From Drouetiella hepatica Uher 2000/2452 (GTDB lineage: Bacteria > Cyanobacteriota > Cyanobacteriia > Elainellales > Elainellaceae): a stretch of DNA of 64,000 nt. Numbering within the stretch: the stretch's first letter is position 1; every line of letters starts with the position of its first letter. A model generated the notes under the pieces. It was not told the DNA's origin. It did not search any database and was given only the letters and a program-made list of their open reading frames with translations. The position numbers were made by a program, and so were the translations under genes. The stretch covers positions 1-64,000 of the forward strand of contig JAHHHD010000012.1 in the NCBI GenBank assembly GCA_019359505.1, written 5' to 3'. This document shows, piece after piece, positions 1,214 through 17,977 of the stretch.

Positions 1214-2917
1214 TTAGCTGAGGGATTTGGATGACATGAAGTTAAGGGGCAGCAGCGTTGCAGCTCTTTCGGCAGAAAACTCTGTGAGTGCGCCGATCGC
1301 CGCATTTAGCAAACGGGCAGGTTTCACATCGTCCTTGATGAGATCCCACAATCGCTGAACCTCGGCGGTGTGGAGCCGATCGTCTTCAATCAGCGCCAGG
1401 ATGATCTGCCGCCTCAATAAGTTACCCTCATCAGACAAGAGGTATTGTAAGCCGAGTTGGGCAGTCGGCAACAGATCGAAGTGAGTATCAGAACGGGCGA
1501 TCGCAATCAAATTCTCCATCCGCTCCCATTGGAACTTGCCGTCCTTAAACAGCACCTCGATCAGCCGTCGTCGCAGAGCCGCCGATTCGCCCGTCAGCAG
1601 CCGCCGCGCCACGTAGGGAAAGGCAACATCGACAATCTTGAAGTCAGGGTTGAGGCTGAGAGCAAGCCCTTCTTGGGTCACGACCGATCGAATAATGAGA
1701 GCAAACTTAGCCGGGAGCCGGAAGGGATACTCGTACATCAGCGACGAGAATTTATCGGTAATGGTCTTAAAGTTAAAGTCCTGCACACTTTCGCCCAGGG
1801 CATTTCCCAGCACCTCTTCTAAGGCAGGAATGATCGGTCGAATATCGGTTCCTGGCGTGAGAAAGCCCAGCTTGACGAAATCTTGGGCAAGATGTTCGTA
1901 GTCCTGGTTAATCAGATGCACCACCGAATCGACCAGCGTTTCCTTAGCCTCTTGATGCAGCTGATCCATCATGCCGAAATCAATATATGCCATCCGCCCA
2001 TCGGGGGTGGCAAACAGGTTGCCGGGATGTGGATCGGCATGGAAAAAGCCGAATTCTAGCAGCTGTCGTAAGCCAGCCGTCACACCAATTTCGATCAGCG
2101 TATCGCGATCGAGATTAGAGTCGCGAATCTTCTGCAAGTCCGTTAGCTTGGAGCCGTGAATCCATTCCAGCGTCAGTACATGCTGGCTGCTATATTTCCA
2201 GTAAATCGCAGGAACTTTGACGGTGGGGTCGCCCAAGAAATTTGCCGCAAACTTTTCGGCGTTTTGCCCCTCATTCTGATAATCCACTTCCTCAAATAGC
2301 TTGGTGCCAAACTCATCAACGACGAGGATGAGGTCATGCCCCAAGTTCAGAGGCAGCCAGGGAGAAATCCAGTGTGCCGCCCATCGCATCAAGTAAAGAT
2401 CGAGTGTCAGCACGGGCAGCAGGTGAGGACGCTGCACCTTGACGGCAACCTCCTCGCCTGTGTGCAACCGCGCCTGATACACCTGACCCAGACTCGCCGC
2501 CGCGATCGGCTGAGGCGTAATTTGGCTAAAGATTTCGTCGATCGCGTGATCTAACTCTCGCTCAACAATGGCAAAGGCAATGTCCGACGGAAAGGGAGGC
2601 AGCTGGTCTTGCAGCTTCACCAGCTCTTCTAGAAAATCCTTTCTAACGAGGTCAGGACGGGTAGAGAGGGCTTGACCGACCTTAATATAGGTGGGGCCTA
2701 GACGCGTTAATATTTTTCGGAGTTGGGCCGCCCGCTTCAGCTTCTTTGCCTCAGTTCGGTTGAACCAGTCGTCTTGCTTCAAGCCCAAGACAAAGCCAGC
2801 AAACAGCCAAACCACGCTGACGGCTCGCCATAGAGTCCGCCAAGGACGAACCCGATAGTAGCGGGCGATCGCCTCTGCGTCATAGCGCCGCATTTTCTCC
2901 AATTGAAATTGACTCAC
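1214..2917 (-). CDS. ABC1/UbiB-family atypical kinase
   Basis: A 567-residue member of the ABC1 (ADCK/UbiB) family, membrane-associated atypical kinases tied to quinone or prenyl-lipid metabolism. The family KxGQ signature is visible as IKVGQALSTRPD near residue 80. The Ala-rich loop and lysine follow as AAASLGQVYQA and VAVKVQRP near residues 140-155. HADPHPGNL lies near 290 and the metal-binding IDFG near 313. One hydrophobic segment near residues 30-46 may anchor the N-terminus. The start is GTG. Full length matches cyanobacterial homologues, which are multi-copy and probably act on plastoquinone or tocopherol homeostasis. The substrate cannot be read from sequence. A small membrane protein follows in the same transcription unit. 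Confidence 0.92.
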   Translation of the reverse strand: MSQFQLEKMRRYDAEAIARYYRVRPWRTLWRAVSVVWLFAGFVLGLKQDDWFNRTEAKKLKRAAQLRKILTRLGPTYIKVGQALSTRPDLVRKDFLEELVKLQDQLPPFPSDIAFAIVERELDHAIDEIFSQITPQPIAAASLGQVYQARLHTGEEVAVKVQRPHLLPVLTLDLYLMRWAAHWISPWLPLNLGHDLILVVDEFGTKLFEEVDYQNEGQNAEKFAANFLGDPTVKVPAIYWKYSSQHVLTLEWIHGSKLTDLQKIRDSNLDRDTLIEIGVTAGLRQLLEFGFFHADPHPGNLFATPDGRMAYIDFGMMDQLHQEAKETLVDSVVHLINQDYEHLAQDFVKLGFLTPGTDIRPIIPALEEVLGNALGESVQDFNFKTITDKFSSLMYEYPFRLPAKFALIIRSVVTQEGLALSLNPDFKIVDVAFPYVARRLLTGESAALRRRLIEVLFKDGKFQWERMENLIAIARSDTHFDLLPTAQLGLQYLLSDEGNLLRRQIILALIEDDRLHTAEVQRLWDLIKDDVKPARLLNAAIGALTEFSAERAATLLPLNFMSSKSLS

Positions 2918-14859: not shown

Positions 14860-15936
14860 ATGCATAAGATTCCTGTTACGGTAATCACCGGGTTTTTAGG
14901 GGCGGGCAAAACAACTCTGGTGCGCCATCTACTCCAGAATCCTCAAGGACGAAGAATCGCAGTTTTGGTGAATGAATTTGGTGAGGTCGGCATTGATGGC
15001 GACCTTCTGCGATCGTGCCAGGTTTGCCCAGATGAAGACGGGAGCGATCGCTCCTCAAGCTCAAGCCCCGATCTCAACCCCGATCTCAACATTGTCGAAC
15101 TCACGAACGGCTGTCTTTGCTGCACCGTTCAGGAGGAGTTCCTGCCCGTCATGCAGGAGTTGCTAAAGCGGCGCGACCAGATTGACTGCATTTTGATCGA
15201 AACTTCAGGGCTGGCGCTACCCAAGCCGCTGGTGCAAGCCTTTCGCTGGCCTGAGATTCGTACCAGCGCCACAGTCGATGGGGTGATTACAGTCGTGGAC
15301 TGCGAGGCTCTGGCGCGGGGAGAGCTGGTCGGCGATCTGGATGCCCTGCAAACCCAACGCCAAGCCGACCCCAATTTAGAACATGAAACGCCGATCGAGG
15401 AGCTGTTTGAAGACCAGCTAGCCTGTGCCGATTTGGTATTGCTGACGAAGGGCGATCGCCTCGATCTAGCTGCCCAAGACAAAGTGCAGTCTTGGCTGCG
15501 GCAAGAGCTGCGTCCCGGCATCAAAATCCTGCCCTGCCATCAAGGCGAGGTAAATCCAGATGTGCTGTTGGGCTTTAATGCTGCGGTGGAGGAAAATCTA
15601 GAGAGCCGTCCTAGCCACCATGACACTGAGGAAGAGCATGAGCATGATGACGACATCAACTCAGTACAATTCGTGGTGGATGCCGCCTTTGAGCCGACGA
15701 GTTTGGTAAAACGGCTGCAACTGCTCGTGCAGCAGCAGGAAATCTACCGGATCAAGGGATTCGTCTCAGTGCCCCATAAGCCGATGCGATTAGTGTTGCA
15801 GGGCGTAGGCGATCGCTTTGACTATTTTTACGATCGTCCCTGGCAGCCAGACGAAGTTCGTCAGACCCGACTGGTGCTGATCGGACAGGGGCTGGATCAA
15901 ACTCAGATCACTACCGAGCTGCTGGCTGTGAGCTAG
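14860..15936 (+). CDS. cobW: CobW family metallochaperone GTPase
   Basis: A 358-residue G3E P-loop GTPase. Walker A is GFLGAGKTT (residues 11-19), followed by VLVNEFGEVGIDG, the metal-binding CLCC at 85-88 (NGCLCCTV), ILIETSGLALP, and TKGD as the guanine-specificity motif near 204. The segment GDLDALQTQRQADPN is characteristic of true CobW, associated with cobaltochelatase and B12 synthesis, rather than the zinc ZNG1/YjiA branches. A His/Glu/Asp-rich linker (about 249-263) may bind metal. A Ser/Asp-rich insert (about 66-76) is unusual. No cobalamin riboswitch was recognised upstream; a duplicated 19-base sequence lies there instead. A divergent ferrochelatase with a His-rich tail is two genes away. 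Confidence 0.9.
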   Translation: MHKIPVTVITGFLGAGKTTLVRHLLQNPQGRRIAVLVNEFGEVGIDGDLLRSCQVCPDEDGSDRSSSSSPDLNPDLNIVELTNGCLCCTVQEEFLPVMQELLKRRDQIDCILIETSGLALPKPLVQAFRWPEIRTSATVDGVITVVDCEALARGELVGDLDALQTQRQADPNLEHETPIEELFEDQLACADLVLLTKGDRLDLAAQDKVQSWLRQELRPGIKILPCHQGEVNPDVLLGFNAAVEENLESRPSHHDTEEEHEHDDDINSVQFVVDAAFEPTSLVKRLQLLVQQQEIYRIKGFVSVPHKPMRLVLQGVGDRFDYFYDRPWQPDEVRQTRLVLIGQGLDQTQITTELLAVS

Positions 15937-16325: not shown

Positions 16326-16538
16326 ATGGCTCAGCGGCTCAAGCGGTGGGAATCCCCTCGCAACGAGGGCAGAAATGATAAGGGTCGAGGCGGCAGCGCC
16401 AGACAGCGGCAGAAGCAAAAGCAGATGAGAATGCTGAAACAGAAGCTAAAGCAGCAGAACGATCTCGGAGGCAATAGAAATGCCGAAGGCGGCAAGAAAA
16501 AAGAGGAGAGAACCCTGGTTCTCTCCTCTTTTTTATAG
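16326..16538 (+). CDS. Possible Lys/Gln-rich small protein
   Basis: A 70-residue frame starting MAQRLKRWESPRNEG, very basic, with RQRQKQKQMRMLKQKLKQQ resembling a coiled or nucleic-acid-binding stretch. The last residues (EERTLVLSSFL) are read from the bidirectional terminator hairpin at 16497-16534, which argues against the 3' end being functional as coding sequence. It lies alone between the tRNA and the ferrochelatase-like gene. It may be a real small protein or chance. Confidence 0.3.
   Translation: MAQRLKRWESPRNEGRNDKGRGGSARQRQKQKQMRMLKQKLKQQNDLGGNRNAEGGKKKEERTLVLSSFL
16497..16534. terminator. Bidirectional Rho-independent terminator
   Basis: Perfect 18-base arms AAAAAAGAGGAGAGAACC and GGTTCTCTCCTCTTTTTT meet across two bases, giving A- and T-tracts on both sides. 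It lies 26 bases beyond the stop of the ferrochelatase-like gene on the minus strand and would also stop plus-strand transcripts. Confidence 0.9.
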
Positions 16539-16560: not shown

Positions 16561-17754
16561 CTAGTGGTGGTGATGCTCACCGTGGGAGTGCCCATGCCCA
16601 TGGTCGTGATCGTGGGAGTGCCCGTGATCGTGAGCGTGCTGGGCTTGGGCGATCGCCAAACTTGGATTTACCGCCAATGCCTGCTCAGACAACAGCGCCT
16701 CAATGTGTTCATCCGCCCAATCTGCCGCCATGTGTAGGAAGTCGTGACTGTCGTTGACGCAGGGCATCTGCACATAGGTGATGTCCGGACGCTTGCGCCG
16801 CAGGTTGTGAATAATGTGATCCACATCTAGCAGCGTTTCATGATTTTCGGTGGCAAAGCCGATCGGCATAAATACTAGCGCCGTTGCCCCCAAATCAATC
16901 AGGTTTCTTGCCGCTAGATCAGCATTCGGCTGTGTCCATTCAATCAGTGGCGTTTGGTGATTGAGCCAGCCGACCGAAATCAGCGGATAGCGGTTGATCA
17001 GCTTCTCACGAACTCGCTCGTACAATGCCTGACTTTCGTCAATGCCAGAGGTAAAGCCCTTCGCTTTATGAGGACAGCCGTGATTCATCAAAACGATCGC
17101 CGTTTGGGAAGGCAGATGCGCCACCGCCAAATCTTTGACGATTTTCTGATGCACTATGTCCGCCATCAGATCAATATAGGCTGGCTCATTATAAAAAGAG
17201 GGAATGTAGCGAATGCCTTTGACCCAATGCTCAGCGCCATTCCATAGCTTTGACAAAGCTTTGTTGACCTGCTCGACCGCGATGCCGCTCGTAAAGATCG
17301 AGTCTACGACCAGCAAGGGATAAATCAGCAGCTTGTCGAATCCTTCGGCTTGCACTTGAGTTAAAACTTGCTCTGGCAAGAAGGGCGCACAGAAGTTAAA
17401 GGCCTTGAAAACTTTGATGCGATCGCCCCATTTTTCCTTCAAATGAGCCTCAATGCCTTCCCGCTGCTGCTCAAAAATGGCGTTGTGGGGTGAAATGAAG
17501 TTGCCATGCTGGTGCCCCCACTCGTGCAGGTCAAAGACAGCCAGCAATTTTGCTAGAGGAGGGTAGACCCAGGTTGGCACCGGGGCAAACTTTGCGGTCA
17601 GCAGGTTGAGTGCCTGCTCGTTATAGTTGGCAAAATCTTCGTAGCTTTCCACTTCGCCATAGCCCATCAGCAGCACGGCAACGCGATCAGCTCCTGCGTC
17701 GGAGGCTGAAGCCTGGGGTTCTTGAAATTGCAGTTTTTCTGGGGTTGCGACCAC
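16561..17754 (-). CDS. Divergent ferrochelatase-family chelatase, His-rich tail
   Basis: A 397-residue protein of the ferrochelatase/CbiK-CbiX chelatase fold. Conserved-site equivalents are seen: the His region LMNHGCPHKAKG near 223, and the Glu-bearing IGFATENHETLLDVDH near 300, matching the catalytic His and Glu of HemH. The N-terminus (VAVLLMGYGEVESYEDF) departs strongly from ordinary HemH, and the chlorophyll-binding helix that ends cyanobacterial HemH is missing. The C-terminus carries 14 His in the last 25 residues (alternating HDHGH patterns). That suggests nickel, cobalt or zinc storage, or chelation of a metal other than iron. The start is GTG. It could be a second chelatase paralogue; automated pipelines would call it ferrochelatase. 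Confidence 0.75.
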   Translation of the reverse strand: MVATPEKLQFQEPQASASDAGADRVAVLLMGYGEVESYEDFANYNEQALNLLTAKFAPVPTWVYPPLAKLLAVFDLHEWGHQHGNFISPHNAIFEQQREGIEAHLKEKWGDRIKVFKAFNFCAPFLPEQVLTQVQAEGFDKLLIYPLLVVDSIFTSGIAVEQVNKALSKLWNGAEHWVKGIRYIPSFYNEPAYIDLMADIVHQKIVKDLAVAHLPSQTAIVLMNHGCPHKAKGFTSGIDESQALYERVREKLINRYPLISVGWLNHQTPLIEWTQPNADLAARNLIDLGATALVFMPIGFATENHETLLDVDHIIHNLRRKRPDITYVQMPCVNDSHDFLHMAADWADEHIEALLSEQALAVNPSLAIAQAQHAHDHGHSHDHDHGHGHSHGEHHHH

Positions 17755-17977
17755 GGTTTAACCTCTGTTTCTACGCTATTTTCTGCGTCATTATGTAGGG
17801 TAGAGCAGCAGTTCAAGCCTCACTCTGTTTCTCAAGGATAACATCCCCCCATAGGGGATATTCTGTTATAGGAAACATTCTCGAAACTTTGCGTTAAAAA
17901 AAGGCGCTAAATTGCCCGCGATCGCGTTGCCCAAACAACGAAAGAGAATCTCTGCCAGTTTCTCAATACTCAATCCC

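Follow-up and report, generated by a model that had tools for sequence, protein, structure and literature searches.

The HemH2 Locus and Protein

The 64,000-nucleotide stretch analyzed here (positions 1 to 64,000 of contig JAHHHD010000012.1 from Drouetiella hepatica Uher 2000/2452; hereafter the window, with G000 as its genome) carries a minus-strand open reading frame, which we name hemH2, for a ferrochelatase-fold (class II chelatase) paralogue ending in a His-rich tail. A G-tract palindrome joined to a predicted extended −10 element lies upstream of the gene (Table 1). Comparative sequence analysis favors reading hemH2 as a nickel-responsive HemH-fold enzyme under the control of the repressor InrS, with a probability that we put at about 0.7 and with no single reaction implied; the enzyme would probably deal with nickel where metals meet porphyrins, and not with everyday haem.

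Table 1. Coordinates of hemH2, its promoter and associated features
Feature	Coordinates	Strand	Basis or remark
G-tract palindrome ATCCCC-N5-GGGGAT, proposed InrS operator	17843..17859	−	sole ATNCCCN5GGGNAT match in 64 kb, 0.02 expected
Extended −10 TGtTATCCT, directly downstream of palindrome	17835..17843	−	predicted; TGnTAnnCT conserved in orthologue upstream alignment
hemH2, ferrochelatase-fold (class II chelatase) paralogue, 397 residues	16561..17754	−	GTG start, stop included
His225 codon, aligned with HemH catalytic His (human H263, LmCpfC H182)	17080..17082	−	alignment
Glu306 codon, aligned with HemH Glu (human E343)	16837..16839	−	alignment
His-rich C-terminal tail, residues 373–397, 14 His of 25	16564..16638	−	translation
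Strong intrinsic terminator 3′ of hemH2, 15-bp stem and U tract	16499..16532	−	fold
CobW-type GTPase	14860–15936	+	TIGR02475, 493 bits; short His/Glu/Asp-rich stretch
DUF3120 locus L271 (G000:C5:56800-60900), outside the window	palindrome 2032–2048, DUF3120 2095–2820	+	

The match to PF00762 covers residues 25–350 (1.5e-38, 133 bits against a Pfam cut-off of 27), and HemH2 shares with HemH the fold, the catalytic His and Glu and the two-domain length. It differs from HemH in its tail, in the absence of a C-terminal CAB helix, in a score of 89.7 bits for the hemH equivalog TIGR00109 that falls under the cut-off of 124.6, in active-site replacements described below, and in sitting on a long branch of the tree. 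The best PDB sequence matches (phmmer) are to CpfC, from which HemH2 is nevertheless set apart by a score of 39.9 for the CpfC subfamily model NF009095 (NCBIfam cut-off 455) and by a separate tree branch; the match to the CbiX model PF01903 is weak (23.8 bits). The predicted structure has a mean pLDDT (predicted local distance difference test) of 73.8 with an unordered tail, and gives Z scores of 30.9 against human ferrochelatase (1hrk), about 29 against CpfC, 20 against SirB and 19 against CbiK, VIA-align rows being taken only for the listed families. CbiX-L, CbiK, SirB and CfbA thus share the class II chelatase fold with HemH2 at Z 17–20, and CbiX-L has, like HemH2, a His-rich C terminus (PMC5816740).

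What the initial annotation had described in the protein holds on alignment and translation: both catalytic-site regions are retained, as His225 and Glu306, and the CAB helix is replaced in its account by the 14-His end that is indeed present. The N terminus, which it had called divergent, differs from HemH over its half of the protein, yet is extremely conserved inside the hemH2 family.

Active Site

All 32 aligned orthologues have His225 and Glu306 unchanged, and Phe300 aligns with human F337. The region of human R164 (the R/K region) is Asn120-Phe121-Cys122 in HemH2, the QS(R/K) that opens the metal-sensitive loop (human Q302–Q314) is replaced by Leu264-Asn265-His266, and the position of human H341 is taken by Asn304; human residue numbers were placed by motif matching, the alignment being without a human row. 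Around Tyr13, Bacillus subtilis ferrochelatase reads MAYGTP. The replaced metal-side and metal-sensitive-loop residues hold throughout the hemH2 family. According to the available part of PMC9133952, R164, M76, Y191 and N75 form the metal side of ferrochelatase, H341 belongs to the lower hydrogen-bond network, and the enzyme accepts nickel, cobalt and zinc as in vitro substrates. The replacements in HemH2 suggest an altered metal or substrate. Sirohydrochlorin chelatases use a His/His metal pair (PMC7689651, available part), in contrast to HemH2, where the second position is Glu.

Other Chelatases in the Genome

A profile search of the genome contigs found two PF00762 copies. The copy other than hemH2 is a canonical hemH on contig 7 (G000:C7:50350-51300, TIGR00109 431.7 bits), which ends in a CAB-type helix, AEVWNGRIAMIGF, with a PF00504 match under the cut-off, and a CbiX/SirB gene is present in the genome as well. 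The initial annotation had suggested looking for such a hemH, and had held that hemH2, if it were the only HemH and iron-specific, would be the housekeeping enzyme. With a separate CAB-bearing hemH and CbiX both present, hemH2 is, on gene content, not the housekeeping ferrochelatase. CbiX was found in all 30 genomes searched, irrespective of hemH2 and with that of the window among them, which rules out hemH2 as a stand-in for a missing CbiX.

The HemH2 Family

The scan of genome contigs yielded 444 coding relatives, of which the best 80 (the loci counted below) all have titles naming cyanobacteria or uncultured cyanobacteria. In a class-wide sample of 242 cyanobacterial genomes, 142 have a strong hemH2 match (E below 1e-80), a count that includes G454, G461 and G547, whose match is a tail-less third paralogue. 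The GTG start recurs in 64/80 orthologous loci. The His-rich tail, defined as at least 8 His per 25-residue window, is present in every one of the 79 loci whose gene end is complete (L040, the 80th, runs off its contig), with a median of 13 His over the 80 loci; judged by this conservation, it is not a chance feature. Its sequence varies freely while its composition stays His-rich, and the core is far more conserved.

In a 31-row tree, the family (19 rows, support 100/99) forms a long branch apart from canonical HemH and from CpfC; this tree is unrooted and holds two partial CpfC rows, and was therefore used solely for separateness. Six collected CbiX rows lie outside the tree. By sequence criteria, hemH2 represents a distinct, deeply separated and conserved cyanobacterial HemH-fold family. 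G393, G443, G459 and G451, which branch early, have the core but lack the tail; hence either the core would have come first and the tail been added later, or the tail would have been lost in these lines.

The third, tail-less paralogue occurs in L217 (G461), L309 (G336) and also in G444, G454 and G547; some genomes have it alone and others have hemH2 too. It carries the motifs TVHGGP and DNYET/ENYET. Broken copies of hemH2 were seen in four genomes (loci L221, L370–L374 and L219): in G411, G501 and G483 the gene is interrupted at residues about 138–149 by different inserts, at contig ends, and in G066 a nested duplication breaks it. The gene therefore appears dispensable, which fits a conditional role, and the 138–149 spot may attract insertions.

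His-rich cyanobacterial ferrochelatases without a CAB helix were noted, as unstudied, in 2021 (PMC8529089) and are very probably the same protein class as HemH2; the available part of that paper gives no regulation, distribution or function for them.

A Conserved Palindrome at the hemH2 Promoter

The consensus from 81 upstream regions (the window gene and the 80 loci) is TATCCCC-N5-GGGGATGTTAnnCTA, in which the palindrome is joined to the extended −10, and 75 of the 81 pass the 99% threshold set by shuffled controls. When 20 genomes were scanned with up to two mismatches allowed, all five zero-mismatch matches were hemH2 promoters, and hemH2 promoters were matched in 10 of the 15 genomes that have the gene. 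The palindrome upstream of hemH2 is new. A MerR-type activator was considered, as the site lies where a −10/−35 spacer would be expected, and was then dropped, since inspection by eye showed no conserved −35. No riboswitch emerged from Rfam, whose sole match in the window is a tRNA.

InrS as the Candidate Regulator

G-tract pseudopalindromes are typical sites of CsoR/RcnR-family repressors (PMC3902906). The window genome has one DUF156 (PF02583) gene (G000:C22:35719-35952, 97.6 bits), whose product shares 81% identity over 88 residues with the DUF156 protein of G014 and shows the InrS ligand spacing (C, +25 H, +4 C), with Pro where CsoR has Tyr before the first Cys. We take G014 and G076 to be Synechocystis-like, partly from their InrS and nrs arrangement. 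The Cys-His-Cys ligands and the missing CsoR-type Tyr are features of InrS in the available parts of PMC4235346 and PMC7055735. InrS is the Ni(II) repressor of nrsD, whose promoter lies between the last two open reading frames of nrsBACD (PMC4284471, available part), and it also binds upstream of nik (PMC7055735).

The hemH2 element recurs at both kinds of target. The same palindrome is found upstream of CbiM-PDGLE-CbiQ genes in G000, G027 and G060 (Pfam was run on G000 only). In G076 it has an RND-pump gene followed by a 227-residue gene on one side and, separated from it by a transposase, an MFS gene on the other, an arrangement resembling the nrsC–nrsD gap that holds the InrS-regulated nrsD promoter (PMC4284471). 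The element is thus shared with the nik/cbiM and nrsC–nrsD sites of the Synechocystis regulon, in which neither hemH2 nor DUF3120 is listed as a target in the literature available to us.

DUF3120, a family with seven transmembrane segments (PMC12423673) present in 232 of the 242 genomes, follows the same pattern. Its palindrome was found in 28/30 InrS-positive genomes (the best-scoring DUF3120 loci) against 0/20 InrS-negative ones, hand-picked among genomes without a DUF156 match (Fisher 5e-12), making DUF3120 a candidate nickel-regulon membrane protein. For hemH2, the element is present in 60/78 InrS-positive against 2/15 InrS-negative genomes (Fisher 5e-6), or 2/12 without G454, G461 and G547, which are represented among the negatives by the tail-less third paralogue. 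A DUF156 gene accompanies hemH2 in 133 of the 142 genomes that have it, against 24 of the 100 that do not. A second DUF156 gene in G062 (L222, G062:C14:174500-179500) has a similar palindrome upstream, ATACCCCCCTGGGGGAT, at about 1589–1605, as would be expected of self-regulation.

Several observations weigh against InrS control or against nickel as the signal. The genomes are related by descent, so the associations are strong ones and not exact probabilities, the p values overstating independence. The element is missing at threshold from 18 of the 78 InrS-positive hemH2 promoters, those of the Microcoleus-like G099 and G336 included, and is present in two InrS-negative genomes, strongly in G387, a fragmented assembly, and weakly in G039. 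InrS was studied in organisms of the Synechocystis type, yet hemH2 is absent from the Synechocystis-like G014 and G076, and the DUF3120 promoter of G076 lacks the palindrome. InrS has affinity for copper and Zn(II) as well (PMC4235346, available part), and the assignment of nickel is by analogy with InrS as a Ni sensor in one species. At nik, moreover, InrS enhances and does not repress (PMC7055735, available part), and the sign of hemH2 regulation is therefore uncertain.

Some of these exceptions would suit a different regulator, unrelated to nickel, as the owner of the palindrome, namely the 18 InrS-positive promoters without the element and its presence in G387 without a detected InrS. Such a regulator is nonetheless improbable, given that the palindrome is common to nik/cbiM and the nrsC–nrsD gap, which are known InrS targets, that at DUF3120 it tracks InrS, and that it is of the G-tract type expected of the CsoR/RcnR family. 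A joint loss of InrS and element in the Microcoleus type was also considered and not upheld, DUF156 being present in 4/5 further genomes of the genus (g13, named Microcoleus from similar loci). Among the g13 genomes with DUF156, G099 and G336 lack the element; the Microcoleus type is mixed.

Genomic Neighborhood

The initial annotation had argued from a nearby CobW. This gene stands on the opposite strand to hemH2 with a tRNA gene between them, hemH2 has its own terminator, and none of the 80 loci has a CobW-like gene within about 6 kb; the nearness is incidental. The terminator strand folds with −26.4 kcal/mol (z −5.8 relative to 200 shuffled sequences), and because so strong a terminator follows the gene, hemH2 is probably a one-gene unit. 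The commonest neighbor, in 36/80 loci, is a divergent gene (e.g. L055:533-1192(−), with the motif CPGIHELKLTDQFL), possibly encoding a co-regulated protein without assigned function. It has no Pfam match and is not adjacent to hemH2 in the window, and gene neighborhood was for these reasons rejected as a functional guide. A DUF3120-like gene is the divergent neighbor of hemH2 in 9/80 loci.

Possible Function of HemH2

The palindrome lies just 5′ of the extended −10, a position suited to a repressor. On this reading apo-InrS would cover the hemH2 promoter and repress it, Ni(II) would release InrS, and HemH2 would be produced at high cytosolic nickel. The two steps that would follow are the least certain: the His tail may collect Ni(II), and the active site, with its altered metal side, may insert this metal into a tetrapyrrole or else sustain haem synthesis under nickel. 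The proposal in the initial annotation of another metal (Co, Ni or Zn) survives for nickel, through the promoter element common to InrS-type nickel genes, and loses its CobW basis. HemH2 might insert the metal or only buffer it.

Nickel insertion is the likeliest single reaction of HemH2, at well under even odds. Somewhat less likely is a nickel-tolerant reserve ferrochelatase, which would place Fe(II) into protoporphyrin when nickel poisons or mis-loads HemH, with the tail shielding the active site. The retained HemH-type His/Glu pair and the nickel-sensor-type promoter element would fit such an enzyme, and protection would be useful since canonical enzymes accept nickel in vitro (PMC9133952); a simple back-up would nevertheless not need the family-wide replacements at the metal side and loop, and HemH2 scores under the hemH equivalog cut-off. 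A non-catalytic chelatase fold whose tail stores nickel or passes it on, acting as a sink or metallochaperone, is unlikely. The density of His in the tail, its presence in every complete locus and its free sequence at constant composition all speak for this role, yet it is the core and not the tail that is most conserved, with no variation at the catalytic His and Glu, and the early-branching members have the core with no tail. A reaction outside these three (nickel insertion, nickel-tolerant iron insertion, sink or chaperone) is comparably unlikely.

HemH2 might also take nickel or another wrong metal out of a mis-metallated porphyrin, which would suit both a metal-stress regulon and the altered proton/metal side of the site. 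HemH-fold enzymes are not known to have metal removal as their main activity, and this role is very unlikely. Less probable still is insertion of cobalt or iron into sirohydrochlorin in replacement of CbiX/SirB, the version of the initial annotation's non-protoporphyrin tetrapyrrole that the CobW hint would imply. The weak PF01903 match is in its favor, and it is disfavored by the HemH-like Glu as second ligand, by CbiX in every genome searched and by the lack of a CobW neighbor at the 80 loci. A link to tunichlorin, a nickel chlorin from a tunicate with a cyanobacterial symbiont (PMC8074062), was considered, and nothing in the available part of that source connects it to hemH2.

In its most specific form, the InrS-controlled reading makes HemH2 a nickel-inducible HemH-fold nickel chelatase that would insert surplus, tail-collected Ni(II) into a porphyrin or chlorin, with DUF3120 as a partner in the regulon; this full combination is rather unlikely. 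A link between InrS and ferrochelatase was not found in the open-licence literature, chelatase papers included, as far as its text was available, and the listed open-licence matches on nickel, ferrochelatase and transcripts and on DUF3120 gave none by title and start of abstract. Other elements are probably also under InrS control according to the available part of PMC4284471, and hemH2 and DUF3120 are candidates for these.

A second ferrochelatase-fold enzyme, unstudied, is common in cyanobacteria, and the promoter evidence places its gene testably in the nickel regulon. The two targets of InrS, nrsD and nik, would become part of a larger conserved set with a tetrapyrrole chelatase and DUF3120 among its members, and a direct tie of nickel homeostasis to haem and chlorophyll chemistry would follow. 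If nickel chelation by HemH2 is true, oxygenic phototrophs would have a route to dispose of nickel, or to use it, as a tetrapyrrole complex.
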